From the NCBI GenBank assembly GCA_039715185.1, contig JBDLIA010000022.1:1-43515 (forward strand): a stretch of DNA of 43,515 bases. The letters are read 5' to 3'. The first letter of the stretch is position 1; each line of letters opens with the position of its first letter. Origin of the DNA: Gemmatimonadota bacterium (lineage in GTDB: Bacteria; Gemmatimonadota; Gemmatimonadetes; Longimicrobiales; RSA9). Shown here piece by piece: positions 3,833 through 24,224 of this stretch. The notes below the pieces were generated by a model that was not told the DNA's origin, searched no databases, and saw only the letters and a program-made list of their open reading frames with translations. Made by a program: the position numbers and the translations under genes.

Positions 3833-4055
3833 GGGTCTCCAGGGGGTCACTCGGCTCTGGCGTTTTGCAAGCCCCGTAACGGATTGCACCGCTCCGAGCG
3901 GACGCTTCGTGCCACGCCACTTCAAGTAATACTTCATGTTGTAGCCTTCAACTATCTCCCTTTTATGGTCATTGTGGCGATGTAGGGATATCTGGCATGG
4001 CGGCTGCTCAAGTTCTTACGCGCTCCCTGGTCCTGCCAGCTCGTACAAGGGTGTC

Positions 4056-5194: not shown

Positions 5195-7897
5195 ATGTCA
5201 GAACCCGCCGACGCACGCACTCCGGACGCGGAAGCCGTCGGCAATGTCGCTTCGGTGACCGCTCCGAGGGACGCTCACGAGGGTCCGCGGACCGTGGACG
5301 TAGGGTTCCTCTCCTCCTGGGACCTGATCCGGGACCGGCTGGTGGGGGCGTCGCGCTGGAAGGTCATGAGTGGCCCGATCGCCACCGCCACCGCGCTCGT
5401 GTCCATGGAGCTGATGGCTTCCTTTGGCGTGGACATCGTTCCGGTACCGGTCGTCGCCCTGTTGTTGGTCCTGTACTCGGCGGTGGTAGGCGGACTTCTA
5501 CCGGGGGTCACGGCCGCGGCGTTCGTGACCGGATACCACGCCTACTTCGTCGCGATGCCGGACCGCAGCCTGGGGGCCATCGACCTCAGACCGTTCTACA
5601 TCCTCGCCACGGCGGCCCCGGCGGCGGCTCTCGCCCCGAGGGTGGTGCGGGACTGGTTCGGCGAGCTCTTCCTGCAGAACGACACCGAGAAGGCGCGGGC
5701 GCTGGAGCGCGCGCGCTTCCTGGCGGAAGCCAACGCGCTCCTCGACACCTCGCTGGGCTTCGATACGACGATCGAGCGGCTGGCCTGCCTGCCTGTCCCG
5801 CGGATGGCCACGTGGACGGCCGCCTACGTGTACGACGAAGGCGGCAGGCTTCAGCGGGTCGCGGTGCACGCGGACGCACAGGAACTGACCAGCACGCTGG
5901 AAACCGCCTTCAGGCGCGCGCCACTTTCCCCCAACCACCCGCACCCCCTCGACGGTGTCCTGGCGGTCGCCGGGTCGGGCGAGGTGTTGCGCAAGGAGCC
6001 CGACAATCGCGCCCACCTGGCGCTGTACGCGCGCACCAACCAGGAGCGCCTCGAGCTGGAGGCGCTACAGCCCCGAGAGATCCTGATGGTCCCCATGCAG
6101 GCGCGGGGACGCCCGCTGGGGGCGATGGTATTCGCGCGGACCGGTGAGGGCGCGGGCTTCTCGCGCCATGACGCGGAGCTCGCGAGCGAGTTCTGCATGC
6201 GCGCCTCGCTCGCGGCGGATAGTGCCCGGCTGTACGACGCGGCGGTGTCGGCGCGGGCGGAGGCGGAGGCGGCCACGGTCCGGGTCAGCGGCATCCTGGA
6301 GAGTCTGACCGATGGCTTCCTGGCCTTCGATGAGGAGTGGCGCTTCAGCTACGTCAACGGCACCGGGGAGCGTCTGTGCGGACGCCCACGACGGGAGCTC
6401 CTCGGGCGCGACTTCTGGGAGGCGTTCCCCGAGCTTCTCGGCACGCGCTTCCACCGGATCTGCCTGGAGGCGGCCGAGGGACGGCGCGCGCGCCGGATGG
6501 AGCTACAGCTCCACTCGTTCGCCGACGCGCCCTGGCTCGAGGTGAACATCTTCCCATCGGTGAACGGCGTGTCGATGTTCTGCAGGGACATCTCCTCCCG
6601 CCGGGAGGTGGAGGACGCCCTCTCTCATAGCGAAGCGCAGCTCCGCCAGTCGCAGAAGATGGAGGCGGTGGGCCGCCTCGCGGGTGGAGTCGCGCACGAC
6701 TTCAACAACATCCTCATGTCGATCATGGGGTACGCGGAGTTGGTCAACAGCAGGCTGCCCGACGACGAGGCGCTGCGCTCCGACATGGCCGAAATCAGCC
6801 GTGCGGCGGGCCGGGCCCAGGCGCTCACACGCCAACTCCTGGCGTTCAGCCGCAAGCAGGTCCACGAGCCGCGGCCGCTGGACCCCAACGAGGTGATCGA
6901 GCAGGTCCAGCGTATGCTGAGGCGGCTCATTGGCGAAGACGTCGCCCTGGTCACTCACCTCGATCCGGCGGTGGGCACCGTGCACGGCGACCCGAGCCAG
7001 ATCGAGCAGGTCCTGCTGAACCTGGCGGTGAACGCGCGCGACGCGATGCCGCTCGGCGGAATCCTGACAATCGAAACGGCCAACGAGGCGCCCGATCCCG
7101 CGCGCGACTTCGGCTCCGAGGTGCTCACCGGGCCGTGCGTGCGCATCTCGGTGACCGACACCGGCGAGGGCATCCCCGAGGACGTGCTCCCCAACATCTT
7201 CGAGCCCTTCTTCACCACCAAGCCGCGAGGCAAAGGCACCGGCCTGGGGCTGGCGACGGTGTACGGTGTCGTCACGCAGATCGGCGGCGACATCGCGGTG
7301 CGGAGCGTACCGGGCAGGGGTACGCGGTTCGACATTCTGCTCCCGCGGGATGCCGCGCCGCCGGTGCCCCTCGACGGGTACGCTGCATCAATGCCCGCAG
7401 ACGAGCCGGATCCCGGCGACGAGACGTCCTCCGCCACGGTCGCCGGGGACGTCGAGAGCAGGCGTCCGAGCCGCTCGCCCGGCCCAGCGCGCGCCGGTAC
7501 CCCCCTCACCTCCAACGGCATCGTCATCCTCGTCGTGGAGGACGAAGACGCCGTGCGCCGCTTCGTGAGCGACGTCCTGCGACTCAATGGCTACGAAGTG
7601 GTGTCGGCCGAAAACGGCAGGCTGGCGTTGGACGCGCTGGCCAGCGGCGTGAACCCCGACCTGGTGCTGACCGACGTGGTGATGCCCGAATTGGGCGGCC
7701 GCGAGCTCGCCGAGCACCTGGTCGCGGAAAGGCCCAGCCTGCGGGTGCTGTTCATGTCGGGGTACGCTGAATCGGAAGTGGCCCATCAGGGGGCGCTGGC
7801 GCCGGGGACGGAACTGCTGGAGAAACCCTTTGGGTCGGACGCCCTGCTCGACGCCGTCCGGACCGGCCTGTCCCGACCCGAATCGGGCGCGGCCTAG
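5195..7897 (+). CDS. Membrane hybrid histidine kinase (GAF-PAS-HisKA-HATPase-REC)
   Basis: 900 residues. Residues about 60-155 hold roughly four membrane spans. Then come a coiled segment, a GAF-like domain (about 175-350), a PAS domain (about 365-465, 'ILESLTDGFLAFDEEWRF'), and a HisKA domain with the phospho-acceptor His501 in 'GGVAHDFNNIL'. The HATPase domain (about 560-720) has 'NLAVNARDAMP', 'DTGEGIP' and 'GKGTGLGLATVYG'. The receiver (about 773-893) has Asp827 in 'LTDVVMP' and Lys in 'LLEKPFG'. All catalytic boxes are intact. It senses a membrane or cytosolic signal and probably passes phosphate to the HD-GYP regulator encoded just upstream. No strong ribosome site precedes the ATG. Its 3' end meets the opposite-strand cluster with only 42 bases between. 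Confidence 0.95.
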   Translation: MSEPADARTPDAEAVGNVASVTAPRDAHEGPRTVDVGFLSSWDLIRDRLVGASRWKVMSGPIATATALVSMELMASFGVDIVPVPVVALLLVLYSAVVGGLLPGVTAAAFVTGYHAYFVAMPDRSLGAIDLRPFYILATAAPAAALAPRVVRDWFGELFLQNDTEKARALERARFLAEANALLDTSLGFDTTIERLACLPVPRMATWTAAYVYDEGGRLQRVAVHADAQELTSTLETAFRRAPLSPNHPHPLDGVLAVAGSGEVLRKEPDNRAHLALYARTNQERLELEALQPREILMVPMQARGRPLGAMVFARTGEGAGFSRHDAELASEFCMRASLAADSARLYDAAVSARAEAEAATVRVSGILESLTDGFLAFDEEWRFSYVNGTGERLCGRPRRELLGRDFWEAFPELLGTRFHRICLEAAEGRRARRMELQLHSFADAPWLEVNIFPSVNGVSMFCRDISSRREVEDALSHSEAQLRQSQKMEAVGRLAGGVAHDFNNILMSIMGYAELVNSRLPDDEALRSDMAEISRAAGRAQALTRQLLAFSRKQVHEPRPLDPNEVIEQVQRMLRRLIGEDVALVTHLDPAVGTVHGDPSQIEQVLLNLAVNARDAMPLGGILTIETANEAPDPARDFGSEVLTGPCVRISVTDTGEGIPEDVLPNIFEPFFTTKPRGKGTGLGLATVYGVVTQIGGDIAVRSVPGRGTRFDILLPRDAAPPVPLDGYAASMPADEPDPGDETSSATVAGDVESRRPSRSPGPARAGTPLTSNGIVILVVEDEDAVRRFVSDVLRLNGYEVVSAENGRLALDALASGVNPDLVLTDVVMPELGGRELAEHLVAERPSLRVLFMSGYAESEVAHQGALAPGTELLEKPFGSDALLDAVRTGLSRPESGAA

Positions 7898-8131: not shown

Positions 8132-9907
8132 CTAATCCTCCTCCACCGGGGCGGTCTGCGCCGGCCCCGCCGGTTCGAGTCGTACCGTGAGCTGCTCGGC
8201 GGGCCCGAGCGAGGGCAACCGCACGACCGCCCTGTCGGCCCCCGCACGATCGGCGATCAGCACCGCGCCCTCCAGCGGACGCGCCCCCCCGTTACGAACC
8301 ACTACCTCCCTGCCGTCCGCGCTCAAGGTGAGCTCCACGCTCGCGCGTGCTCGCCACCATCGTGCCACGTCGGTGGCCGTGCCGGCCCACAGGGTCGAGT
8401 CCCCGGCGACCTCGTCCAGCAGCGCCACGAGCGTCGGCAGCAAATCCCGGCGCCCCAAGGTATGCGCGTGCGTGCCCAGGACGTAGAGCCCCCTGAACTC
8501 GGCGACGAGGTCCAGGTCCGCCAGGAATCGCCCCACCAACTCACCACGATCACGCACCCCGTCGACCGTCAGGTAGTGGAAATCGTCCGGCGTGGCGCGG
8601 ACGATCAACACCACGGAGTCCCGTCCGAGCGGGACGATCTCGGGGCCTGCCGTGCGCACGTCGCTCGTTCCGTAGACGTACTCGCCTCCCGCGGCCCGCC
8701 AGGCGGCCAGGGTGCGTGCGTCGGGGACCCCGCCGCCGGAGTGAAACCCGAGGGCCGGTGCGCCCGCCGCTCTGCCCACGGCCTCGCGACCCTCGTTCAA
8801 CAGGCGCGCGCGCCGATCCTCGGGCCCGGCCTCCGCGCGATCTCCCGCGGCGGGACGGAGCCCCACCTCACCCACCCGCGCCGCGATCCGAACCGCCTCC
8901 TCGTGCTCTCGCGCGGCTGGCCCGGCGATGAAGAAACTCACGGGGATACGGTCCGCCGATGCCGCCGCCACGTTGCGCACGTTCTCCGGCCGCGTTTGAA
9001 CGTCCTGCGCGACGACGACCCCGGCCCTGGCGGCGCCCGGCCACGACGCCAACTGCACCACCGGCCTGCCCGCCGCCCAAAGCGCCGCGTTCGCGGCTAG
9101 CCGCCGAGCCACGTCCCTGCTCCAGCCCGGTTCGGCGTGGGTGAGCGCGAACCCGAACACCACGGAGCGCCCGACCCCCACCAGCGAACGCGCGATCGCC
9201 CCATCGAAGAACCGCTCATCGTTCGCGGCCATGGGCACGCGCACGAAGTCGCCGTAGTAGACGTCGCGATCGCCTCCGCGGAACACGAACTGGTTCGCCG
9301 CGGGGCGAACCTCGAGCCGCGCGCCGGGCGGCACCCCCGCCGCCAGCGTGGTCTCTCCCAGGGCCACCGCGAAGCGCGAGCCACCCCGTTCGTCGAGTCG
9401 CGCCACCTGACTCGCGCCCCCCAGCAGCGAGTGCAGCAGCGTATCCGCCGTGGGGGCGCAGGTCCGGCCGCCGTAGCCCACTGGCCCCACGGCGACGAGC
9501 CCGCCGCCGGCCGAGAGATGGCGTACGATCAGGTTGCGCTGCGCCGCGCCCAGGCAGGCGCCCCACGGCACGATCAGCGCGGCCGCATCGCCCGGTCCCA
9601 CGATGCGCGCGCCGCCCTCGACCAGAAGCTCCCGCCAGGCGGAGACCTCGGCGGCGTAGAATCCCGGCGGGGTCACGCGGACGTTCTCCGGCTCCTCCAG
9701 GATGGCGACCACCGCGCCGGCCAGTGAGCCCAGCGGGACCGCGGCGGGAAGAGCTGTCGGCGCCACCTCCGGGCCGGGCTCCGGCGTACCCACCAGGCCC
9801 GAGGTGGGCGGCAGCGTCCGCCACAGCCAGAGGCCGCCGAACGCGAGTCCCGCCAGCAGCGCCAGCGAGCCGAGCATGGCCGCGAGCCTCGAGCGCGTGC
9901 CTGCCAC
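8132..9907 (-). CDS. Deacetylase-fold (NodB-like) protein with degenerate active site, exopolysaccharide module
   Basis: 591 residues. An N-terminal membrane anchor or signal (about 10-30) is followed by a Rossmann-type, amidotransferase-like domain (about 60-280, 'VVAILEEPENVRV', 'ALIVPWGACLG', 'GGGLVAVGPVGYGG'). A NodB-like deacetylase fold (about 300-500) comes next, then a small beta domain. The NodB first motif, normally TFDDG, reads 'VVAQDVQT', and the usual HxxxH zinc pair is not visible ('GEVGLRPAAGD' stands there). A late 'LGTHAHTL' remains. Catalysis is therefore doubtful. The combination of deacetylase and amidotransferase-like domains recalls PelA; the position recalls PgaB. The GTG start has a GGGGGG stretch upstream, and 6 bases separate it from the previous gene. 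Likely periplasmic, handling the nascent polysaccharide. Confidence 0.75.
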   Translation of the reverse strand: MAGTRSRLAAMLGSLALLAGLAFGGLWLWRTLPPTSGLVGTPEPGPEVAPTALPAAVPLGSLAGAVVAILEEPENVRVTPPGFYAAEVSAWRELLVEGGARIVGPGDAAALIVPWGACLGAAQRNLIVRHLSAGGGLVAVGPVGYGGRTCAPTADTLLHSLLGGASQVARLDERGGSRFAVALGETTLAAGVPPGARLEVRPAANQFVFRGGDRDVYYGDFVRVPMAANDERFFDGAIARSLVGVGRSVVFGFALTHAEPGWSRDVARRLAANAALWAAGRPVVQLASWPGAARAGVVVAQDVQTRPENVRNVAAASADRIPVSFFIAGPAAREHEEAVRIAARVGEVGLRPAAGDRAEAGPEDRRARLLNEGREAVGRAAGAPALGFHSGGGVPDARTLAAWRAAGGEYVYGTSDVRTAGPEIVPLGRDSVVLIVRATPDDFHYLTVDGVRDRGELVGRFLADLDLVAEFRGLYVLGTHAHTLGRRDLLPTLVALLDEVAGDSTLWAGTATDVARWWRARASVELTLSADGREVVVRNGGARPLEGAVLIADRAGADRAVVRLPSLGPAEQLTVRLEPAGPAQTAPVEED

Positions 9908-9913
9908 GGCGGG

Positions 9914-10186
9914 CTAGCCCCCCTCCTCCGGTTCCGGCTCGGAAGCCGGGCGCCCCAGCCCGAGCCCGAGCGGGTCGGGCGCAGCCTGCGGACGCTCACC
10001 CCGAGCATCGCTCAGCGCCGGAAGCCGCACGCGCTCGAAGAACATCGGCCCTTCGCGCTCTAGTTCCTCCGGCGCCGGTCGCCGTCGCTCGCGCACGCGG
10101 AACGCGGCGTAGCTGGTCGCCGCGAGCGTAATCGTAACGACGATGGTCACGACCATGACCAGCACGATGACCTCCAGGACGTTCAT
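9914..10186 (-). CDS. Small membrane partner of the polysaccharide synthase (PgaD-like position)
   Basis: A 90-residue protein with one strong membrane span at residues 5-28 ('VIVLVMVVTIVVTITLAA'), then a basic stretch (FRVRERRR) and a Pro/Glu-rich cytosolic tail. Its ATG overlaps the TGA of the synthase gene by 4 bases (10183-10186), so the two are translationally coupled. In Pga systems the small membrane protein PgaD completes the c-di-GMP site on the synthase PgaC. This protein has the same place but only one span and no recognisable sequence match, so a PgaD-like role is inference from position. Confidence 0.75.
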   Translation of the reverse strand: MNVLEVIVLVMVVTIVVTITLAATSYAAFRVRERRRPAPEELEREGPMFFERVRLPALSDARGERPQAAPDPLGLGLGRPASEPEPEEGG

Positions 10187-11520
10187 ACGGGCCTTCCCAC
10201 TCGTTCGAGCTTGCCCCACGTCATCTCGAGCTTCAGCGCCTCCTCTACGGAGGCGAGCAGCTTGGCGACGTCGATGAACAGGATGAAGAAGAAGCGGTAG
10301 ATGACCGCGAGCGGCACGAGGGACAGGTCCTCGCCCTCGATCGCCACTGTGTGAAGCGCCGCGGCGACGTCCAACAGCGTCAGCAGCAACCACCAGCTCA
10401 CCACGTATGCGCCGGCGTCGAACGCCAGGAAGATGCCGACGAAGAACAGATTGCCGACCACGTTCATGAACGGCCAGATGACCGCCTCGAACAGCATCAT
10501 GGCCACCGACAGCCACACCGCCGGGTCGGTCCTCGGGTTGAGCAGAGCTGAGCGGCGCTTGCCCATCGCCTGCAGAATTCCACGCGTCCAGCGATAGCGC
10601 TGGCGAAGCAGGCCCATGAGGTTCTCCGGCGCCTCGGTGTAGGCGATGGCGTCGGGCGCGTATTCGATGCGGTAGCCGTTCGTGAGGATCTTCAGCGTGA
10701 GATCCGCGTCCTCGGCGAAGGTGTCGCTGTCGTAGCCGCCGACCTGCCGCAGGACGTCGCGGCGGAACACGCCTATGGGGCCCGGAATGATGTTGACCGC
10801 GCGCAGGAACCCCTGGGCGCGGCGCGGCATGTTCAGCCCCTCGATGTACTCGAGCGCCTGCAGCCGGCTCCACAGGTTGCGCCGATTCTCCACCTTTACG
10901 TTGCCCGCCACCGCCGCCACGCGTGGGTCTCGAAAGTGCCGCATGGCCGCGCGCAGAGAACCCGGGGCCAGAGTCGAGTCGCCGTCTATGCAGCAGACGA
11001 ACGGGAACCGCGCCAGCGCGATGCCCGTGTTCAGCGCCGCAGCCTTGCCCGCGTTGGCCTTGCTCACGACCCGCACTGTCGCCTTGCCGTGCCGGCCCTC
11101 CAGTGCTGACGCCCGGGCCGCCGTGTCGTCTGTGCTGCCGTCGTCGATGACCAGCACCTCCAGCCGCGGGTAGTCCAGCCGCAGCACGGAGCGGATGGCG
11201 TCCTGGATCACGCGGCCCTCGTTGAACGCCGGGATCAGCACCGATACCGGCGGCAGCATCGCCGGTGTCGCCTTGCGCTCTTCCTCCGGGCCGATCGCCT
11301 GCTCGACGTGCTGCAGGTAGCCCAGCCAGAGGAGCACGATGTAGCGCAGCACCAGGATGCCCAGGAAGAGGATCAGCGTCACCACGGTGGCGCGGACCAG
11401 CACGTTCTGGATATCGGGCGGGGCGAAGAATGACCAGATGAGCACCGACAATACGCCCGCCAGCCCGACGACGAGCAGGATGCCTGACACGAACAGCAGC
11501 GTGTAACGGGGGCGCCTCAT
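10183..11520 (-). CDS. Processive family 2 glycosyltransferase (PgaC/IcaA-like polysaccharide synthase)
   Basis: 445 residues. Two N-terminal spans (about 7-32 and 43-68), a cytosolic GT2 domain (about 90-320), and three or so C-terminal spans. All motifs of a processive synthase are present: DDGS at 126-129, the DxD equivalent DGD at 179-181, the catalytic ED at 270-271 and QRYRW at 307-311. It should polymerise a UDP-sugar and extrude the chain through the inner membrane; poly-N-acetylglucosamine is the best guess by family resemblance, not proven. There is no PilZ domain, so c-di-GMP control must come from another protein. The start at 11520 is fixed by a 4-base overlap with the barrel gene; an open frame continues further upstream but is out-of-frame shadow of that gene. 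Confidence 0.92.
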   Translation of the reverse strand: MRRPRYTLLFVSGILLVVGLAGVLSVLIWSFFAPPDIQNVLVRATVVTLILFLGILVLRYIVLLWLGYLQHVEQAIGPEEERKATPAMLPPVSVLIPAFNEGRVIQDAIRSVLRLDYPRLEVLVIDDGSTDDTAARASALEGRHGKATVRVVSKANAGKAAALNTGIALARFPFVCCIDGDSTLAPGSLRAAMRHFRDPRVAAVAGNVKVENRRNLWSRLQALEYIEGLNMPRRAQGFLRAVNIIPGPIGVFRRDVLRQVGGYDSDTFAEDADLTLKILTNGYRIEYAPDAIAYTEAPENLMGLLRQRYRWTRGILQAMGKRRSALLNPRTDPAVWLSVAMMLFEAVIWPFMNVVGNLFFVGIFLAFDAGAYVVSWWLLLTLLDVAAALHTVAIEGEDLSLVPLAVIYRFFFILFIDVAKLLASVEEALKLEMTWGKLERVGRPV

Positions 11521-13694
11521 GGCCAGGTGGGCCTCGTCACCCACTGGACGCTGAGCAGAGCGCCCCGGTAGCCGTCCTCGAAGGCGGCGCCGGTCCAGTC
11601 CATCGACGCCAGCACGTCCCACCCGTCGCCCGCGAGGTTCATGTCCAGCCCCGCGCCCAAGAAGAACACCTCCTCGTCGAAGAAGCGTCGCTCCGGGCCG
11701 CGTTCGCGCACGAACACGTAGGACGGGCGCACCCGCAGGCCGGCGAATCGGTCGACGCCGATCTTGCGCTCGTAGGCCAGGCCCACGCTCGGCGCCACGT
11801 AGTAGTCCGGCGTCCAGTACAAGGGGTCGCCGTCGAGCGCCGGTGAGTCCCCCGTCGTACCCACGAACGCGACCCCGGCCAGCGCCGAGAAGCCGGCGCC
11901 CAACGGCCTGCGCGCGTCGAGAGAGGCACCGATGCGCCACGTTTCGCCGAGATCGGAGGCCAGGAACTCGTTCTCGGAGGCCACCGACAGGCTCCACGAC
12001 CCCGCTCGCGTGGCGACGCCGCCTCGCACCAGGTGGGACATAACGTCGGCCCCGACCGCCGCGGAGGTGGCAGACCGGCGGACCGCGGGGCCCAGGTCGT
12101 AGGCCGCCTCCAGGCGGGTGCCGGGGCGCGGATCCCAGGTAATGCCCACCGTCGCGGTGGGGTGGGTCCCTGCCCGCTCGAACCCGTGCGCGCCGAGGCC
12201 CAGCGTCAGCCAGGTGCGATCGGAGGTCGTGAAGCGCGCCTGGCCGCTCAGCGCGAACCCGACCGCGGTCAGGTCCAGATCGTCGACCGGGAAGCCCTGT
12301 AGCACGTCCGAGCGGCCACTAACAGACCAGACCGCGCGTTCGCCGAACCACGTCCGCGTGACCGCGTTGGAGAACCAGCGGAACGCCTGATTGTCGCCGA
12401 AGGTCTCGTTGATTGCCGACCACCGGCCCGCGGGCGGCGGGCGCTGCGTGCTATCGGGGGCGGGCGGGCGGGCCTCCAACGCCGCGCTCGCCAGCTCCAG
12501 GCCGCGCGCGGCGCGTTGGTCGTCCGGGCGGGCCTCCAGCGCGGACTCGTAGAGCCGGGCGGCGTCGGGGGAAGACCCCGCCCACCACTCGATGTCGGCC
12601 AGCAGCAGCAGGCCGTCGGGGTCTTGGGGACGCTCCGCAAGCGCGGTCCTCAGATCCCGGCGCGCTTCCTCCCAACGCTCCTGCCGCGCGAGCAGGCGGG
12701 CGCGTTCGATGCGGAGCGTCGGGTCGTCGGCCGACGCGAGCAGGGCGGAGTAGGTCGCCAAGGCCTCGTCCGTACGGCCGGCCCAGGCCAGCGCGCGCGC
12801 CAGCCGGACGCGCACGTCGCGGCTCGGATCGGCCCTCTGCGCATACCTGTCGAGCGCGTCCGCGGTCGCGGCGGCGGAGTCCGCCTGCGCCGCCGCCGCG
12901 GCGTACTCCAGCCACAGCGAATCCGCGAACTCACCGCTCCACGCCGCGTAGCGCAGGTGCACCAGCGCTTCGCCGTGGCGGTCCTCGCGCGCCAGCGCGC
13001 GCCCGAGCCACAGCCGTTCCAGGGGCGCGTCGTTCTCGGCCAGCCACGCCGCCGCCTCCGCGGCGCTCGGCCGCAGCCCGCCGCGGATCTCGCGCAGCAG
13101 AGCGGTCGCCTCCACGTCTCCCGGCCGGACGTCCAGTACCCGGAGGACGGCCGAGCGCGCCGGCACCGGCTGCGCCGCCCACCAGCGGTAGCGCGCCAGC
13201 TCGAGCCAGAGCCCGGCGTCGTCGGGGCGCGCGGACGTCAGCGCCTCCAGCTCGCGCGCGGCGGCCTGCGGCTGGCCGCCCCACGCCAGCGCGCGTGCGT
13301 ATTCCCGGCGGACGCCGAACGGACGGTCGCGCTCGGACAGGGTCTCGAAAAGTCGGCGGGCCGCGGCGTAGTCACCAGCCCCCACGGCGGCGCGCGCCCG
13401 GTCCAGCGTCGTGCCGGGGGCGCCCTGCACCCTCAGAGGCGGCGCGGGACGTTCGGGCGGGGTCTCACGCGCCAGCGCGGGCAGCTCGTTCGTTCGGCGC
13501 GGCGTAACGCCGCCGGTCGGTCGAACGGGATCCCGCCGCGGAGCGTTGCGCGCCACGGGGCTGCCGAAGACGTCCGACTGCGACAGTCCTGGCGGCGGGT
13601 CGTACAGGACGTACAGCGCCCCCATGCTCACCACGGTGAGGGCCGCCGCGATCAGCAGGAACCGCGGGAGGTAGCCGCCCCCGCCAGTCGCCAC
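11517..13694 (-). CDS. TPR and outer-membrane beta-barrel protein (PgaA-like exporter)
   Basis: 725 residues. A hydrophobic segment (about 10-31) acts as signal peptide or anchor. A Pro/Arg-rich linker follows, then TPR-type helical repeats (about 95-410, for example 'ARRLFETLSERDRPFG', 'ALATYSALLASADD', 'ARRDLRTALAERPQD'), then about 300 residues of alternating amphipathic strands rich in Trp, Tyr and Gly ending in 'GALLSVQWVTRPTWP', typical of an outer-membrane barrel. This is the architecture of PgaA, which guides partially deacetylated polymer through the outer membrane; related YaiO/NfrA-type proteins share it. The GTG start lies 3 bases after the stop of the BcsE-like gene; its stop overlaps the synthase start by 4 bases. 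Confidence 0.85.
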   Translation of the reverse strand: MATGGGGYLPRFLLIAAALTVVSMGALYVLYDPPPGLSQSDVFGSPVARNAPRRDPVRPTGGVTPRRTNELPALARETPPERPAPPLRVQGAPGTTLDRARAAVGAGDYAAARRLFETLSERDRPFGVRREYARALAWGGQPQAAARELEALTSARPDDAGLWLELARYRWWAAQPVPARSAVLRVLDVRPGDVEATALLREIRGGLRPSAAEAAAWLAENDAPLERLWLGRALAREDRHGEALVHLRYAAWSGEFADSLWLEYAAAAAQADSAAATADALDRYAQRADPSRDVRVRLARALAWAGRTDEALATYSALLASADDPTLRIERARLLARQERWEEARRDLRTALAERPQDPDGLLLLADIEWWAGSSPDAARLYESALEARPDDQRAARGLELASAALEARPPAPDSTQRPPPAGRWSAINETFGDNQAFRWFSNAVTRTWFGERAVWSVSGRSDVLQGFPVDDLDLTAVGFALSGQARFTTSDRTWLTLGLGAHGFERAGTHPTATVGITWDPRPGTRLEAAYDLGPAVRRSATSAAVGADVMSHLVRGGVATRAGSWSLSVASENEFLASDLGETWRIGASLDARRPLGAGFSALAGVAFVGTTGDSPALDGDPLYWTPDYYVAPSVGLAYERKIGVDRFAGLRVRPSYVFVRERGPERRFFDEEVFFLGAGLDMNLAGDGWDVLASMDWTGAAFEDGYRGALLSVQWVTRPTWP

Positions 13695-13697
13695 GCC

Positions 13698-15269
13698 TCA
13701 GGCCCCCGCGATCGCGGGGCGCCCGGTAGCGCCGTTCTCCAACCACGCCAGAACGCCCTCGCGGTCGGCCGGATAGGAAAACATGGAGGTGTGGTCCAGA
13801 TCGGCCAGCCCGGGCTCGGCCGAAACCAGGCGCGTAAGGAGCGAGCGCACGTGCTTGCGATGGATGTCGTGCAGGTAGAGCGCCACCCTGCCGTCCTCCA
13901 TCACCGCCACCAGATCGCCGTCGCGCACGCGCAGCCGCTCCAGCAGAAGCCGGCCGGCCTCCGCCGTCGAAAGATCGGCCGGGCCCAGCTCGACCAGCGC
14001 GAAGTAGGCGTGGCGCGCACGCTCCACGTGCTCGCGCAGGAGGCCTCGGAAGTCGCCCGCGGCGAGCGGAACTGCCTCGCCGTTGCCGTCCGTCGGCTGC
14101 GATCCCGGCGGCGCGGATGCCACCGCGCCTTCGGCGATGCGCCGGTGGCCACGCGCGCGCGCGTTGTCGATGCGCGCGAGCAGCTCGGACGGGCTCAGCG
14201 TGTCCTCCAGGAAGTCGTCCCCGCCCGCGCGCAGACCCTCGGCGCGCGTCTGCCCGCGCAGCCCCCGGGTCGAAGACACGAACAGGATGGGCGCGCCGTT
14301 GCCCGCGCGCCGAAGCTCCTGCGTCAGGCTGAGCGCCGGCTCCGGCCGCATGGGATCGAGCGCCACCAGGAGGGCTCCGTAGTTGGCCGAAGCCAGGTCA
14401 CCGAAGGCGCGCGCGACCGAATCGAACGCGTCCAGTTGGTAGGCGTCGCGCAGCGGCGGCAGCCATTCCGACGGGAACTCCGCGCCGTGGCTCAGGAGCA
14501 CCACCCGGCGCCGCGATTCCTCGGGCAACTCGTCGTGCGAGCGCAGCGACAGCTCCTCCACTATGCCCGCGCCAGGCCGGATGCTGAACCGCACGGACTC
14601 CGTCGAACCCAACCGCTGACGCAACTTGCGCACGGTCATCTGACGCGCGGAGCCGGCCAGGTTCTCGAAATGGAAAATCCCCGCCGCGCCGGCGCTGATG
14701 CGATTGTAGATGCGCCGGTAGTAGGTCTCGCTCAGGTCGCCCGGCACGGTGATGAACGTCGTGCACGGGATCTCGTCCAGGAACTGGGCGAAGGCGTCCA
14801 CGGCCTCCTCGGCCGCCATGCCGCCCTCCAACAGCGGCAGGACCGAGTCGATCACGAAGCGGTGCGGAATCTGATCCCAGAGCAGCGACTTGAGCTCCTC
14901 GTACACCATCGCGGGATCAGCCACCCGGCTGTAGTGGCGCTGGAAATCGAGCCGGTAGCGATAGAAGGCGAGGCGCTCGGCGCCGGCGGCCTCCTGGAAG
15001 TCGTAGCCCAGATACTCCGCCTGCGCGAACAGATCCGCGGGGTCGTCCTGCGTGAGAATGGCGCACGTCTCGTGCGCCTCCAGGCCCGTCCCCATGAAGT
15101 GGAGGGCCGTGGAGGTCTTGCCCGAGCCCGGCGCGCCGCTCAGGACGTAGTAACGGCCCGAGATCAGCCCGCCGACGCGTTCATCGAAGGGGCGTACCCC
15201 TATCGAGACGGTCTTGGGTTCTATCGTTGGTTGCGCCACGGGGAAGCGCTCCGAGACTGGCATCCGCAT
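13698..15269 (-). CDS. KaiC-like ATPase with receiver-like and GGDEF-like domains (BcsE-like c-di-GMP sensor candidate)
   Basis: 523 residues, soluble. Residues about 20-230 are a KaiC/RadA-type RecA fold: Walker A GAPGSGKT at 45-52 and a hydrophobic strand ending in Asp near 140 ('RFVIDSVLPLLE'). Residues about 240-355 look like a receiver domain lacking the usual acidic pair. Residues about 390-510 follow the secondary-structure pattern of a GGDEF domain: 'RDGDLVAVMEDGRVALYL' fits the RxxD-(GGDEF) core, with RDGD at 449-452 as the I-site and MEDGR in place of GGDEF. The order RecA-like/receiver-like/GGDEF-like is that of BcsE, which binds c-di-GMP through an RxGD motif. The ATG at 15269 is chosen for GGGA upstream; a second ATG follows two codons later and a GTG lies at 15326. 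Confidence 0.8.
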   Translation of the reverse strand: MRMPVSERFPVAQPTIEPKTVSIGVRPFDERVGGLISGRYYVLSGAPGSGKTSTALHFMGTGLEAHETCAILTQDDPADLFAQAEYLGYDFQEAAGAERLAFYRYRLDFQRHYSRVADPAMVYEELKSLLWDQIPHRFVIDSVLPLLEGGMAAEEAVDAFAQFLDEIPCTTFITVPGDLSETYYRRIYNRISAGAAGIFHFENLAGSARQMTVRKLRQRLGSTESVRFSIRPGAGIVEELSLRSHDELPEESRRRVVLLSHGAEFPSEWLPPLRDAYQLDAFDSVARAFGDLASANYGALLVALDPMRPEPALSLTQELRRAGNGAPILFVSSTRGLRGQTRAEGLRAGGDDFLEDTLSPSELLARIDNARARGHRRIAEGAVASAPPGSQPTDGNGEAVPLAAGDFRGLLREHVERARHAYFALVELGPADLSTAEAGRLLLERLRVRDGDLVAVMEDGRVALYLHDIHRKHVRSLLTRLVSAEPGLADLDHTSMFSYPADREGVLAWLENGATGRPAIAGA

Positions 15270-17717: not shown

Positions 17718-18173
17718 TCACGGGGAGAGGACGTGCTCTTGTGACGATGCTTGCGCGCGCGAGGCGTCGGACGGCTCGGGCGCGACCTCGGCCAACACCC
17801 GCTCCGCTGCGACCGGTTGCCAGACGAGCTTGTCGCCGACGCGCGTGCCGCTGGCCTCTATGGTCCCTGTGGGAATCTCCAGGGCGTAGTGCGAGCCCTT
17901 GATGAAGCCGGTACGCGTGCCCGGCGCCAACTCCGGTCTCAGGTCCACGACGGTGCCCTCCTGGTCGAGGAACACCACATCCAGGGCGTATTTCATTCCG
18001 TACATGTGGATGCCCTTGCACGGCACGATCAGCAAGCCCTCGCCGGGTGCCGGCTCGGGCCTCCCGAGCATCCCCCGCAACCGCGTCCAGTGCGTGCCCG
18101 CCACCGCCACGCGTCCGCCCAGTACGCTCTGGCGCGTGGCGTTGCGCACGTCGATACGCCGCATGCGCTTCAT
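17718..18173 (-). CDS. DUF192 family protein
   Basis: A 151-residue protein matching DUF192: 'THWTRLRGMLGRPEP', 'GEGLLIVPCKGIHMYGM', 'ALDVVFLDQEGTVVDL', 'GSHYALEIPTGTI'. The conserved Cys-Lys-x-Ile-His-x-x-x-Met pattern is present. No signal peptide is visible here, although many family members have one. The function is unknown; DUF192 genes often sit in or next to tad loci. Its ATG overlaps the TGA of tadC by 4 bases (18170-18173), so it belongs to the tad transcript. The tail after residue 125 is Ala/Ser-rich and specific to this protein. Confidence 0.9.
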   Translation of the reverse strand: MKRMRRIDVRNATRQSVLGGRVAVAGTHWTRLRGMLGRPEPAPGEGLLIVPCKGIHMYGMKYALDVVFLDQEGTVVDLRPELAPGTRTGFIKGSHYALEIPTGTIEASGTRVGDKLVWQPVAAERVLAEVAPEPSDASRAQASSQEHVLSP

Positions 18174-19108
18174 CCGCCGAAGCCGCCGCCGGTCACCAGG
18201 ACGCGGTAGATCTGGATTGCGGCGGGCCCGAGGATTACGGTGAAGATCGCCGGGAATACGCAGAACACGAGCGGCGGAATCAGCTTGATGGTGGTCTTGG
18301 CCGCTGCCTCTTCCGCGCGCTGCCGGCGCTTGGTGCGCATGGTGTCGGCCTGCGTGCGCAGCGCGGTGGACACGGACGTACCGAAGCGGTCGGTCTGGAT
18401 CAGGATTGCGGTGAGCGCGCGCACGTCGTCCACGCCGGTCCTCTCCGCCAGGTTCCGCAGCGCCTGCTGGCGCTCGGCTCCCGCCCTGATCTCCAGGTTC
18501 ACGAGCGCCATCTCTTCGCTCATCTCCAGGCTCACGTGGCGGATCTCCTCGGACACGCGCACGAGCGCCTGGTTCAAGCCGAGTCCCGCCTCCACGCACA
18601 CGACCATCAGGTCCAGCGCGTCGGGCAGCGCCTTCTGGATCTTGAGCTTGCGCTTCTTCTGCTTGCGCCCGACGTAGAAGCTGGGCCCCACCCAGCCGAG
18701 CGCCGCCGCGGACAACCCGCGCACGAGCAGCATGTTGGGCGCGGCCCCCGACGCTGCCCCGATGGCGAGCAGCGAAAGCCCGAGCCCCGCGGTCAGGAAC
18801 AACCTCACGCCCCAGAACACCGCCGGGGCCGTGGGGCTCCGGTACCCCGCCTGGATCAGGCGCTGGCGGATCTCCGCGGCGTCCTTGCGCCCCTGGTCCA
18901 CCTTGGACCCCAGCCGGCGCAGGAACAGCTCGAACTGCGCGCGCCGATCCTGCCGACCCGAATGCTCGGCGCTGACCCCCGCGTACCCCAGGCGGCGCAG
19001 CTCCGAAAGGCGCTGCGTGACGGACCGAGGCCGGCTGGGAGCAGCGTCGGCCGCCCCTATGATCAAGAGGATGACCGTCAGGCCGATGAGAAGAGCTGGG
19101 ATTACCAT
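18170..19108 (-). CDS. tadC: Tad pilus inner-membrane platform protein TadC
   Basis: 312 residues of the GspF/T2SF family. An N-terminal span is followed by a cytosolic segment, two spans (about 100-150), the conserved F domain ('LPDALDLMVVCVEAGLGL', 'LRNLAERTGVDDVRALTAIL') and a C-terminal span ('FCVFPAIFTVILG'). TadC pairs with TadB to form the platform that the ATPase CpaF drives during pilus extension. A GAGGAG ribosome site precedes the ATG by 6 bases. It is 9 bases downstream of tadB. Confidence 0.95.
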   Translation of the reverse strand: MVIPALLIGLTVILLIIGAADAAPSRPRSVTQRLSELRRLGYAGVSAEHSGRQDRRAQFELFLRRLGSKVDQGRKDAAEIRQRLIQAGYRSPTAPAVFWGVRLFLTAGLGLSLLAIGAASGAAPNMLLVRGLSAAALGWVGPSFYVGRKQKKRKLKIQKALPDALDLMVVCVEAGLGLNQALVRVSEEIRHVSLEMSEEMALVNLEIRAGAERQQALRNLAERTGVDDVRALTAILIQTDRFGTSVSTALRTQADTMRTKRRQRAEEAAAKTTIKLIPPLVFCVFPAIFTVILGPAAIQIYRVLVTGGGFGG

Positions 19109-19117
19109 GGATTCTCC

Positions 19118-20092
19118 TCAGATGTCGATGTCCACGACCTGGCGGATCCACAGGAAGCCGATCACCTGTAGAATCAGCGCGGCGCCCAGGAAGAAATGCC
19201 CGAGCGGGTCGGTGAACAGCGTGAGGATGTATTCCCGATTCAGGAAGTAGAACAGGATCCCCATGATGATCGGCAAGCCGGCCAGCAGGTAGCCTGTCAT
19301 GCGACCCTGCGCGGTCCGCGTCCGAATCTCGCGCTGGATCCGGAAACGCTCGCGAATGGTGTGAGAGATGCTGTCCAGGATCTCGGCCAGGTTGCCCCCG
19401 ACCTCGCGTTGGATGAGCACCGCGGTCACGAAGATACGGATGTCCAGGAGCGGGTTGCGATCGGCTAGCGACAGCAGCGCGTCCTGAACCGGCAAGCCGA
19501 AACGCTGCTCCTCGAAGGCGCGCCTGTACTCCTCACCCAGCGGGGCCGGCAGCTCCTCCGCGACCATCTTGATCCCCGCAGAGAACGGGTGGCCGGCGCG
19601 CAGCGCGCGACCCATCAGGTCGATCGCCTCCGGCAGTTGCTCCTCAAGCTTGCGCATGCGGCGCGCCCGCTTGCGCGTCACGTACATGTACGGCAGGCCT
19701 CCGCCGATCGCCGCGGTGACGAGCGCCACGCCGAAGCTGTTCGAGAACACGAAGCCGGACAACCCACCGCCGATGGTGAAGCCGACGGTGGCCATGAGGA
19801 ACGTGCCGATGGACCAACTCAGGTCCGCCTGCTCCATGGCGGTCTGGATCCCGCGCATGCGCGTGAACCGATCGGCGAACGCCTCTAGCGCGGTCTGCTG
19901 GTGCAGCGGCCGAAGCAGGTCGGAGGGCGCGTTGGAGCGCGAGGCGAGCGTCTCGAAGTCCATGCTCTCGAGGCGGCTGGCGAGCGTCTTCTTGTCACGT
20001 ACGTCGCGTAGCCCCTCCCACGACAGTGACATGATCACCACCAGCGCCGCGACCGCGACGAAAACCAGAATGGGCAGCAGGAGCGATCCCAT
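19118..20092 (-). CDS. tadB: Tad pilus inner-membrane platform protein TadB
   Basis: 324 residues, T2SF fold. N-terminal span (about 5-25), then two spans near 100-145, the F domain ('LPEAIDLMGRALRAGHPF', 'LADRNPLLDIRIFVTAVLI', 'VGGNLAEILDSIS') and two C-terminal spans. It is the partner of TadC in the pilus base at the inner membrane. Its ATG lies 3 bases after the stop of the ATPase gene cpaF, so expression is probably coupled. Confidence 0.95.
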   Translation of the reverse strand: MGSLLLPILVFVAVAALVVIMSLSWEGLRDVRDKKTLASRLESMDFETLASRSNAPSDLLRPLHQQTALEAFADRFTRMRGIQTAMEQADLSWSIGTFLMATVGFTIGGGLSGFVFSNSFGVALVTAAIGGGLPYMYVTRKRARRMRKLEEQLPEAIDLMGRALRAGHPFSAGIKMVAEELPAPLGEEYRRAFEEQRFGLPVQDALLSLADRNPLLDIRIFVTAVLIQREVGGNLAEILDSISHTIRERFRIQREIRTRTAQGRMTGYLLAGLPIIMGILFYFLNREYILTLFTDPLGHFFLGAALILQVIGFLWIRQVVDIDI

Positions 20093-20095
20093 GGC

Positions 20096-21580
20096 CTAGC
20101 TCACCGACTCCAGGCGGTCGCCCCACAGCGTCTTCTTCTCCTTCTCCGCCTTGGCGGGAGCCTCCTCCTCGGCCATGTCCGTGCCCACCTCGTCGCCGAA
20201 CAGGAACGACGAGAGCTTGATGCCGTGCATGCGCAGTTGATCCGCGAAGCGCGGGCGGATGCCGGTCGAGCGGAAGCCGCCCAGCACCTTGCCGTCCTCG
20301 TCGATGCCCTGACGGTCGAAGATGAAGATGTCCTGCATGGTGATGACGTTGCCCTCCATGCCCACTATCTCCGACACGGCGACGACCTTCCTGGACCCGT
20401 CGCTCATGCGGCTGGCCTGGATGACGACGTCTATCGCCGAAGAAACCTGCTCGCGCATGGCCCGCTCGGGGATGTTCAGGCTGGCCATGGAGATCATGGT
20501 TTCCAGCCGGGACAGCGCGTCGCGCGGGGCGTTGGCGTGCAGCGTCGTCAGCGAGCCGTCGTGGCCCGTGTTCATGGCCTGCAGCATGTCGATCGCCTCG
20601 CCGCCACGGACCTCGCCGAGGACGATCCGGTCGGGCCGCATGCGCAGCGCGTTGATCACCAGCATGCGCTGATTCACCGCGCCCGACCCCTCGACGTTGG
20701 GCGGCCGCGTCTCCAGCCGGACGACGTGCGGCTGCCGGAGCTGAAGCTCGGCGGAGTCCTCGATCGTGACGATGCGCTCATCCTTGGGGATGTACCCGCT
20801 CAGGATGTTCAGGAGCGTGGTCTTGCCGGCGCCCGTGCCGCCCGAGATGAGGACGTTGAGGCGCGACTTCACGATCGCCTCGAGCAGCTCGAGCATGGGC
20901 TCGCTGAGCGACTCGTAGCGCAGCAGGTCCTCGCCCGACAGCGTGTCCCGCTTGAACTTCCGGATGGACACGTGCGGACCGTCGATCGCCAGCGGCGGGA
21001 TGATCGCGTTGACGCGCGATCCGTCCGCCAGACGGGCGTCCACCATGGGTGAGCTGTCGTCGATGCGCCGCCCCACCGCGCTCACGATCCGGTCGATCAC
21101 CTGCATCAGGTGGCGGTCGTCGCGGAAGTGCGTCCCGGTCGCGAACAGCTTGCCGCGCCGCTCCACGAACACCTGGCGGCCCGTGTTGACCAGGATGTCG
21201 GAGATCTCCGGGTCCTTCATGAGCGGCTCGAGGGGTCCGAGGCCGAAGATCTCGTCCAGGACCTTCTCCACCACCTGCTCGCGCTCGACGCTGGCGAGGG
21301 GGGTCTCCTCCTCGTTCAGCAGCTCGTGCGCGACGCGCTGGATGGTGCGGGCGGCCTCCTCCCGGTCCAGCTCGGACAGGCTGGCCAGGTTGAGCCGCTC
21401 AAGCAGGTTCCGGTGCAGCCGTTCCTGCACCTTGCTGAGCGTACCCTGCGCGGTCGGCGTGACCTCAGCCGCCCGCCCGCCCTTCGCCTTGGCTCGCTTG
21501 GCCAGGTCGCCGGTCCAGAGGCCTCCGCCCTGTTCCGGCGCGGCGCCCTCCTCGGTGGGTGTCGTTGTTTCTTCGCTCAT
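20096..21580 (-). CDS. cpaF: Tad pilus assembly ATPase CpaF/TadA
   Basis: 494 residues, the secretion ATPase (GspE/VirB11 superfamily) that powers Flp pilus assembly. Visible motifs: Walker A GGTGAGKT at 247-254, the Asp box '[10 protein letters not shown]' near 272-281, Walker B 'DRIVLGE' at 317-323 and the His box '[12 protein letters not shown]' at 339-350. The first 50 residues are a variable acidic/Ala-rich extension. The C-terminal 50 residues after '[12 protein letters not shown]' are also variable. A GGGGGAG site precedes the ATG. The order cpaE-cpaF-tadB-tadC is the standard tad order. Confidence 0.97.
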
Positions 21581-21604
21581 AACTCAGGCTCCCCCGGATC
21601 GCCG

Positions 21605-22843
21605 TTACTTCTTCAACCCGAACAGACGCTTCAGCGGCGCCGCCAGCCCGCCGTCGCCGTTGGTGTCCGGCGCGCCCGGCAGATCTACCAGGCCTCCGAT
21701 GATGGACTCGATGTCGCGCGAATACGGGGAGCGGCCGTTCAACGTGATGGGGCGGCCCTCGTTGGCCGCCTTTATCGCGGACCTGTAATCGTTCGAAAGC
21801 GTCCAGTGCACGTCCATGTCCAGGAGCGTACGGATGTCGTCGATGGTGACCTGTCCGTCCGGGTGGTAGCGGTTCACCACCACGCGGATGCGGTCCGTCG
21901 AGCTGTCATCGATGCGCTGTAGCACGGGCAGCAGCCGCTTCAGGCTGCCCAGCGTGGGCAGATCCGCCGTCGTGACGGCTATGATCTTGTCGGCCGATTC
22001 CATGACGCTGAGCATCATGGGCGACAGCGACTTGGACATGTCCAGGATGATGAAGCGGTAGGTCTGCCGCAGGAAGTCGATGATCTTGCTGGCTTCCTCC
22101 GCGGCGATCACGTCCGAGCGCTCCGGCCGGAGCGGCGCCGCGAGCACGTCCAGTCCCGACGGGTGAGACTCCACGTAGGAGCTCACCAGGTTCGGGTCCA
22201 GGCGATGGAAGTTGCGCGCCAGGTCCAGGAAGCTGAAGCGCGGGCGCAGGCCCAGCAGGAGCGCGACACCGCCGAGCTCCATGTCCAGGTCCACCAACAG
22301 CGTCTTCTCGTTGGTCGCGCGTTGCAGCGCCACCGCGAGGTTGACCGCCGCAGTGGTGGTGCCCGTGCCGCCCTTGACCGGAAGGAAGGCGAACACCTTG
22401 CCGCGCTGCTCCACCTCGTGGCCGTGCAGCTCCTGCTCGACGAAGGAGTGGCGCTTCCACGCCCGGCCCAGAGCCTCCCCCAGGTCGCTCGTGCTGACCG
22501 GAGCGAGCAGGTACTCGTTCACCCCCGCGCGCATGGCCTGCATGAGGACGTCCGGCGCGAGCCCCGGGCCGGAGCCGACCACGTGCAGGGTGGGTGCGGC
22601 GTCCGCCAGGTACGCGGCGATCTTGATGCCGGTGGCCGGGTCGTCCCCCATGCCCACGAAGACGACGTGCAGGTCGCTCTGGGTGAGCTGGGCCGCGTCT
22701 TCGCGGCCCAACTCGGCGAGCGGGGCGTCCAGCTCGTGCGCGATCTCCAGGCGCCGCTTCCCCGGCAGCTCGACCTCGTCAAGCGCTTTTCGCACCGCCG
22801 GATCGACGCCGACGAGCGCAATGCGCAGGCTCTTTTGCGCCAT
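21605..22843 (-). CDS. cpaE: Tad pilus localisation ATPase CpaE/TadZ
   Basis: 412 residues. The N-terminal 130 residues form an atypical receiver-like domain ('DLHVVFVGMGDDPATG'), and the rest is a MinD/ParA-type ATPase with the deviant Walker A motif KGGTGTTT at 157-164, 'TLLVDLDMELGG' and 'FIILDMSKSLSP'. CpaE/TadZ marks the place in the cell where the Tad machine is built. It is 24 bases upstream of cpaF and 77 bases downstream of the tadG-like gene. Confidence 0.95.
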   Translation of the reverse strand: MAQKSLRIALVGVDPAVRKALDEVELPGKRRLEIAHELDAPLAELGREDAAQLTQSDLHVVFVGMGDDPATGIKIAAYLADAAPTLHVVGSGPGLAPDVLMQAMRAGVNEYLLAPVSTSDLGEALGRAWKRHSFVEQELHGHEVEQRGKVFAFLPVKGGTGTTTAAVNLAVALQRATNEKTLLVDLDMELGGVALLLGLRPRFSFLDLARNFHRLDPNLVSSYVESHPSGLDVLAAPLRPERSDVIAAEEASKIIDFLRQTYRFIILDMSKSLSPMMLSVMESADKIIAVTTADLPTLGSLKRLLPVLQRIDDSSTDRIRVVVNRYHPDGQVTIDDIRTLLDMDVHWTLSNDYRSAIKAANEGRPITLNGRSPYSRDIESIIGGLVDLPGAPDTNGDGGLAAPLKRLFGLKK

Positions 22844-22920
22844 GTTCCTGTTCCCTTTCCCTATCCCAATCCACGACCCGGGGAGATCCGGCCTACCTCA
22901 CCTGCTCGATACGACCGAGC

Positions 22921-24183
22921 CTAGAACTCCGAAGGATCGATCAATCGCAGTATCATTATCAACGAATTCGTCGACATTGAGTCCGGCCCTTCGGTCCCTT
23001 CGCCGTAGTACATGAAGCGCGCCTTGACCGGATCGCTCCTCGTCGGCTGCTCCTCGATGTACATCAGCGCCACGTTGCTGACGACGATCATCCAGTTTTG
23101 GCTCCCGTCAAAGCCGTCGGCCGCCCGCAGCAGGCCGTCGGGCCCGAACATGAGCACCTTGACGACGCGCTCGCTATCGCCGACCAGGTTCCCGTTGGCG
23201 TCCACAATGCCGTTTTGGGCCTCGTCCCAGGTCGTGTTCGGATCCTTGGCCTCGAGCACATCGACACCCTTCTCCGTGGGGCCGATCATGTTGCCGTTCT
23301 CGACGCGGACCGTGTCTCCCGGACCGATGGACTCGGGGCTGCAGTTGGCGATGTTGCCCTCGTAGACCTTCCCGCCCTGATTCTTCCCCTCGTCGTTGTA
23401 CAAGCGAATCGGGAAGAAGGAGCCAGTCGAGACCACATCCAGATCGTTGGGGTCGCTAACCTTGGTCTTGATCTGGTACCCCCAGTCCCGGAACGGAACG
23501 CCCGCGGCGCCTGTGGTTCGGGCGCAACTCCCGTAGCCCGTTTCGCCGTGCCCGTCGGGACACGATCCCATGTCGGGAACGCCGCCCGTGGCCGATCCAT
23601 GCTCGGCGTAGCGGTCGCCCTCGCTCGCGTTCCAGATCCAGTCTTCGTCAACCGTCGTGTACGGAATGTTGTCGTCGCCGATGTCGTCGATCGAGTCGTC
23701 CCACAGATCCGGAATGGCGAACGGGATGATGCAGTCCGTGCCGCCCGATTGCGTCGCTTCCGCCACCGCTACCCCCGCCACATCGACCACGCCCACGCCG
23801 AGGATCTTGGCGAACCACGTGGGTATGGTCCGGCGCACGATGACCCTGATGCGCCTGTCGGCCGGCTTGACGTCGACCTGCACCTCGGTGGAGTCGATCA
23901 ACTGGCCGCGGATCGTGTTGCTCTCGGCGAACGAGTGTGCGAGTCCCACTGCGTCTGCAACCACCGTGGCGTCGGAAGGATCGCGGCGCAGGAACTCCCC
24001 CGCGGCGGCGAGCGCCCCCGAATCCGCCGCGCGCTGCGCTTCCGCCCTGGCCGAGAACATCATGCCCATGTCCACGCCCAGGGCGATGAGCCCCAGTAGC
24101 ACTGGCATACCCAGTGCTACCAGGGCCAGCGAGGCCCCACGTCGGTTTCGCGCGTACCGTTTCAAGAGATTGTTCTCTTGCAT
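22921..24183 (-). CDS. TadG-like pilus-associated protein
   Basis: 420 residues. Residues about 10-60 are the TadE/TadG-like N-terminal module: a basic lead 'NRRGASLALVALGMP', one membrane span, then 'RAEAQRAADSGALAAAG'. The remaining part is extracytoplasmic, acidic, and has several cysteines ('SCPDGHGETGYGSCA'), with no von Willebrand factor domain visible. TadG-type proteins are minor components or anchors of the Flp pilus. The ATG at 24183 is preferred because AAGGGG lies 6 bases upstream; a second ATG at 24189 is too close to that site. Located between cpaC and cpaE. Confidence 0.85.
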   Translation of the reverse strand: MQENNLLKRYARNRRGASLALVALGMPVLLGLIALGVDMGMMFSARAEAQRAADSGALAAAGEFLRRDPSDATVVADAVGLAHSFAESNTIRGQLIDSTEVQVDVKPADRRIRVIVRRTIPTWFAKILGVGVVDVAGVAVAEATQSGGTDCIIPFAIPDLWDDSIDDIGDDNIPYTTVDEDWIWNASEGDRYAEHGSATGGVPDMGSCPDGHGETGYGSCARTTGAAGVPFRDWGYQIKTKVSDPNDLDVVSTGSFFPIRLYNDEGKNQGGKVYEGNIANCSPESIGPGDTVRVENGNMIGPTEKGVDVLEAKDPNTTWDEAQNGIVDANGNLVGDSERVVKVLMFGPDGLLRAADGFDGSQNWMIVVSNVALMYIEEQPTRSDPVKARFMYYGEGTEGPDSMSTNSLIMILRLIDPSEF

Positions 24184-24224
24184 TGGCATCCCCTTACAGT
24201 ATCGCGACACCGGCCAGGCCATTC

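Follow-up and report, generated by a model that had tools for sequence, protein, structure and literature searches.

Does the reading frame at 13698..15269 of the window (the whole 43,515-nucleotide stretch of Gemmatimonadota DNA analysed here) encode a c-di-GMP receptor of the BcsE type, and which polymer would such a receptor serve beside a Pga-like synthase? The frame is a real gene, since its homologues, with 24-49% identity to the query, are of similar length, occur phylum-wide and are nearly all free of internal stops; their domain order is identical. The product (hereafter the regulator) comprises a KaiC-like NTPase domain (residues 21-240), a degenerate receiver (REC*, residues ~250-375) and a degenerate GGDEF domain (GGDEF*, residues ~390-512), with the following features:

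13698..15269, minus strand: BcsE-like regulator, 523 aa, ATG at 15269; NTPase, REC* and GGDEF* domains (Pfam, AlphaFold, profile)
15114..15137, minus strand: Walker A GAPGSGKT, residues 45-52
14844..14861, minus strand: Walker B-like strand RFVIDS, residues 137-142; R137 invariant, D141 kept by 90% or more of the 26 members
14247..14258, minus strand: REC* motif RGQT (residues 338-341), opposite R306ATD of BcsE in the alignment
13914..13925, minus strand: I-site motif RDGD of GGDEF* (residues 449-452), opposite R415TGD of BcsE in the alignment

In Pfam, KaiC (PF06745) matches residues 21-237 (E 5e-21), Response_reg matches residues 277-367 weakly and under the cut-off, and residues 384-523 have no convincing family. 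The receiver is clear by the family profile, which matches response regulators of the PDB with E down to 1e-14.

The regulator was found in 37 of 395 Gemmatimonadota genomes by single-sequence search and in 42 of 395 by profile search. The family is spread over 30 of 138 genera and is absent from the ten other sampled genomes of the source bacterium's own family; its 26 near-complete members form the alignment A1. A search of genome contigs with the single protein yielded no relatives. With an eight-member alignment, full-length relatives were found in Gemmatimonadota only, in a scan that used two short patterns and leaves relatives elsewhere possible; all named records with a full-length match in that scan belong to this phylum. 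The regulator had no tblastn matches in plasmids, and a literature search found no description of BcsE, PelD or Pga in Gemmatimonadota.

The synthase operon

Across the families of the phylum a gene order is conserved that runs from the regulator through a TPR outer-membrane protein, a PgaC-like GT2 and a one-helix peptide to a deacetylase-like protein. In the window these reading frames overlap or almost touch, and the genes downstream of the regulator are:

11517..13694, minus strand: TPR-repeat outer-membrane protein, 725 aa (TPR families of Pfam and synteny), with a putative PgaA/BcsC-like role
10183..11526, minus strand: processive GT2 synthase, PgaC/IcaA-like, 447 aa, no PilZ
9914..10186, minus strand: single-helix membrane protein, 90 aa (synteny, alignment), candidate BcsF-like/PgaD-like partner
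8132..9907, minus strand: polysaccharide-deacetylase-like protein, 591 aa, with catalytic motifs that are intact in relatives and decayed in this copy

By synteny, the conserved block does not extend to the genes upstream (255-aa, AAA and Tad); a Tad/Flp pilus-like cluster (CpaE, CpaF, TadB, TadC, TadG-like) occupies 17718-24276 upstream of the operon, on the same (minus) strand.

PgaC_IcaA (TIGR03937) is by far the best family for the synthase, in agreement with the Pga-like neighbour described in the earlier note; the score of 220 bits falls under the 422-bit equivalog cut-off, so we infer, and do no more than infer, that the polymer is PNAG-like. With the GT2 counted as present at E ≤ 1e-110, the regulator occurs in 32 of the 33 genomes that carry the synthase, 3.5 being expected among the 395 (Fisher P 4e-37, genomes counted without phylogeny correction), and in 28 of these 32 the GT2 lies 2.2-3.0 kb downstream of the regulator on the same strand. 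The suspected tie to a non-cellulose synthase is therefore phylum-wide by both synteny and co-occurrence. The sole sampled genome with a synthase and no regulator detected is G203 (contig C194). At this threshold, ten genomes have a regulator but no synthase hit. Contig-end cases are found among these ten but do not include G325 or G051. The regulator genes of these two genomes (L048 and L038) have no synthase nearby and may serve other loci.

The small membrane peptide belongs to no Pfam family and has a conserved cytosolic tail (..SYaAyKvRexRRP..PxFFER in the alignment). BcsF is the one-helix anchor of BcsE, and its tail adds a strand to the BcsE NTPase domain (PMC11470070). The hhalign comparison of the peptide with BcsF covered 6 columns and gave no meaningful match, hence the parallel between the two is one of anatomy and is suggestive. 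In the deacetylase-like protein of the window, the RPP motif and the HxxxH metal motif (GLRPAAGD where GSHTYDH would stand) are gone; L031 is one of the relatives that retain the deacetylase motifs (PF01522, E 1e-19). The polymer of the source species may stay acetylated.

The genome encodes seven GGDEF proteins over the cut-off; neither BcsB nor a PF10995 (CBP_BcsE) match was found in it. Its one PilZ protein, a BcsA-like glycosyltransferase on contig C53 (about 497-2251), with BcsB absent, perhaps serves a second c-di-GMP-linked polymer. A few kb from the operon, 3972-5168 (plus strand) encodes a receiver-HD protein with the HD-GYP-like motifs HDVGK and HHERWDGTGYP, likely a c-di-GMP phosphodiesterase, and a hybrid histidine kinase (5195-7897) adjoins it.

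Relationship to BcsE

The AlphaFold model of the regulator, computed from A1, has a mean pLDDT of 86.8 and a pTM of 0.55, the latter leaving the relative placement of the domains uncertain. Its five best Foldseek matches in the PDB are all E. coli BcsE chains (~530 columns, E 3e-23 to 4e-20), and KaiC ranks after them (E 4e-17). Whole-chain TM-scores are low (0.34-0.40), which fits a common domain order with differing domain placement. A GGDEF-like fold of the C-terminal region, proposed in the earlier note and set as a test beforehand, was borne out: residues 384-523, modelled by themselves (pLDDT 91.5), have as leading hits a T. maritima GGDEF domain, PelD, BcsE (6YBB and 6TJ0) and further GGDEF domains, with a probability near 1, yet with E of just 1e-3 to 1e-2 for so small a domain. 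The order of elements, beta-alpha-beta-beta-alpha-beta, is that of a GGDEF core minus one helix, and such a shortened core was described for BcsE and PelD (PMC7439463).

Profile comparison agrees with the structure search. Alignment A3 was built from nine BcsEs (E. coli, Yersinia, Klebsiella, Photobacterium, Pseudoalteromonas, Catenovulum and three from Caballeronia), and hhalign of A1 against A3 gave (i) a probability of 96.8% with E 2e-10 over 439 colinear columns, from the N-terminal domain through the end of GGDEF*; (ii) a score of 87 for the real pair, against at most 19.7 for 20 column shuffles and 16.8 for the reversed profile; and (iii) single-domain matches of the NTPase (E 5e-4), REC* (E 3e-4) and GGDEF* (94.3%, E 1e-7), each to its own counterpart only, the wrong-domain pairs failing. 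The scores, the controls and the per-domain matches together point to homology of the regulator and BcsE over the whole length, and the BcsE-type order and fold first read from the sequence stand on both lines of comparison.

The regulator is nevertheless not BcsE itself, because neither Pfam nor the operon context agrees with such an assignment. PF10995 is matched by all nine BcsEs. At E ≤ 10 it is missing from the families that the regulator matches and, for the 26 members together, from the 25 families matched most often. The regulator is best described as a variant of the BcsE kind that goes with a PNAG-like, non-cellulose synthase. Could the likeness have arisen by convergent domain shuffling, the protein being a KaiC-family ATPase, extended by a receiver and a C-terminal domain, whose task in signal transduction or in oligomer switching has nothing to do with BcsE? 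The missing PF10995 among the listed matches of the members would agree with such an origin, as would the strongest plain-sequence relatives, which are KaiC proteins and response regulators. However, the BcsE match is colinear and domain-specific over three domains, BcsE stands above KaiC in the structure search and the regulator, like BcsE, has an exopolysaccharide synthase for its operon partner. Convergence is disfavoured by the structure search and the profile comparisons, and we consider it very improbable.

We propose, with moderate confidence, that the regulator is a cytosolic, BcsE-like protein that senses c-di-GMP and regulates the synthase-dependent production of a PNAG-like exopolysaccharide in Gemmatimonadota. 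Its role as a synthase regulator is what we infer from the comparisons above; binding of c-di-GMP, binding of ATP and contact with the small membrane peptide are put forward with less certainty.

The putative ATP and c-di-GMP sites

The NTPase domain of BcsE was reported as likely unable to bind ATP (PMC7439463). The regulator has the complete Walker A noted at the first reading, and GxxGxGK[TS] is intact in 18 of the 26 members, all on one side of a single branch (support 100/100); the remaining eight have lost it (the K replaced by R, the T by L, or worse), and some members of that clade retain the operon. Compared with KaiC, the query keeps D141 and K215-x-R217, the latter at the place of the trans-acting K-x-R, while the catalytic Glu-Glu pair is replaced by Q74-D75-D76 and lacks acidic residues in most relatives. 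These residues make ATP binding by the query likely and hydrolysis no more than possible. The earlier note had suggested an ATP-driven effector, that is, a synthase regulated chiefly through ATP hydrolysis by a KaiC-like motor or timer, with c-di-GMP as a modulator. Although Walker A, D141 and K215-x-R217 are all in place in the query, the altered Glu-Glu pair and a whole clade of eight without Walker A, members of which keep the operon, argue against this suggestion, and we hold it to be improbable.

In BcsE, a c-di-GMP dimer is held by REC* R306ATD together with GGDEF* R415TGD, and the latter was termed absolutely necessary in the E. coli protein (PMC11470070). RxGD is carried by all nine BcsEs, in Photobacterium exactly as RDGD, and the RDGD of the regulator aligns with it, at the I-site as had been proposed; the GGDEF box is lost, EDGRV standing five residues past RDGD. 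The conservation expected of RDGD was found in half of the motif: G451 and D452 are invariant (26 of 26), while the I-site Arg, R449, occurs in just four members (the query, L002, L004 and L016). R447, two residues before R449 (the -5 Arg), is present in 25 of the 26. In REC*, R338 is likewise found in 25 of 26 members, and the fourth place of the motif is D (RxxD) in 20 and T in the query and four relatives (RGQT); the Caballeronia BcsEs also lack RxxD (RHQY). An apparent trade-off between the T of REC* and the R of GGDEF* rests largely on one clade. By these motifs the composite site is partly present throughout the family and c-di-GMP binding by the query is plausible; the exact E. coli form of the site occurs in L016 only (RSID with RSGD), and the same conclusion does not extend to the whole family.

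The scarcity of the I-site Arg raises the question of whether most of the family has lost c-di-GMP sensing and persists as a BcsE-like scaffold that tethers or assembles the synthase complex, in which REC* and GGDEF* would mediate protein-protein contacts and the GD would be retained for the sake of folding. Asp is commonly retained in GGDEF domains without an I-site, so its invariance agrees with a scaffold, and the residues that mark phosphorylatable receivers, an acidic pair and a lysine, are missing from REC*. Binding of BcsE to BcsRQ is itself independent of c-di-GMP (PMC7439463). Against this, RxGD is kept in the query, L002 and L004, and R338 and R447, kept in 25 of the 26 members, are not obviously needed by a mere scaffold; loss of sensing is in our opinion rather unlikely, though a reading to be taken seriously.

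If the regulator is a c-di-GMP sensor, as we prefer, its KaiC-like N-terminal domain, probably ATP-bound, would position it at the inner membrane beside the synthase, possibly through the one-helix peptide of the operon. The REC*-GGDEF* tandem would sense c-di-GMP via RDGD and R338 of REC*, and the regulator would then promote or stabilise the active PgaC-like synthase. The PilZ domain of BcsA, BcsQ and BcsR, the partners of BcsE, are absent from the operon, thus the downstream contact must differ. More tentatively, BcsE could be a decayed member of an older and wider class of ATP-binding c-di-GMP receptors (KaiC-REC*-GGDEF*) for various exopolysaccharide synthases. The ATP site would then have survived in the Gemmatimonadota branch, whose partner would be a BcsF-like one-helix membrane anchor, and synthase activity would depend on both ATP and c-di-GMP; we regard this as possible and as speculative.

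Comparison with known systems

In the literature found, BcsE, which in E. coli links c-di-GMP with the secretion of cellulose, is described from proteobacterial cellulose operons only. That a relative occurs in a second phylum, where its P-loop is intact and its partner a Pga-like synthase, would mean that the three-part c-di-GMP receptor is not cellulose-specific. The Gemmatimonadota regulator offers a handle on the former role of the dead NTPase of BcsE and suggests a c-di-GMP input to PNAG-like synthases apart from the PgaC-PgaD interface. The family, its operon, the second motif in REC* and the small membrane peptide are additions to the earlier note.

With BcsE of E. coli Type II cellulose secretion (PF10995; PDB 6TJ0, 6YBB, 9FNN), the regulator has in common the NTPase-REC*-GGDEF* order, the full-length fold and 523 aa, RxGD in GGDEF*, a conserved Arg of REC* at the place of R306ATD, and a gene neighbourhood that includes an exopolysaccharide synthase and a short membrane peptide with one helix. 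It differs by an intact Walker A (degenerate in BcsE), no PF10995 match and RGQT in REC*; its partner is a PgaC-like GT2 without PilZ, no BcsA, B, Q or R is in the operon, and the phylum is another one. PelD of the Pseudomonas Pel system, one of the leading structural hits for the C-terminal domain, similarly uses a degenerate GGDEF domain as the c-di-GMP sensor of a synthase-dependent exopolysaccharide, however, it is a membrane protein of GAF-GGDEF architecture without NTPase or REC.

The operon resembles PgaABCD of PNAG synthesis in its TPR outer-membrane protein, PgaC-like GT2, deacetylase and small membrane protein. The site of c-di-GMP action in the E. coli system is the PgaC-PgaD complex (PMC8461298). 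The Gemmatimonadota operon differs in that an additional BcsE-like cytosolic protein heads it and the GT2 scores under the PgaC equivalog cut-off. Finally, the N-terminal 220 residues are akin to KaiC/RecA-like ATPases in Walker A, the Walker B Asp and K-x-R, whereas the regulator is a single KaiC domain fused to REC*-GGDEF*, with the catalytic Glu-Glu pair replaced.
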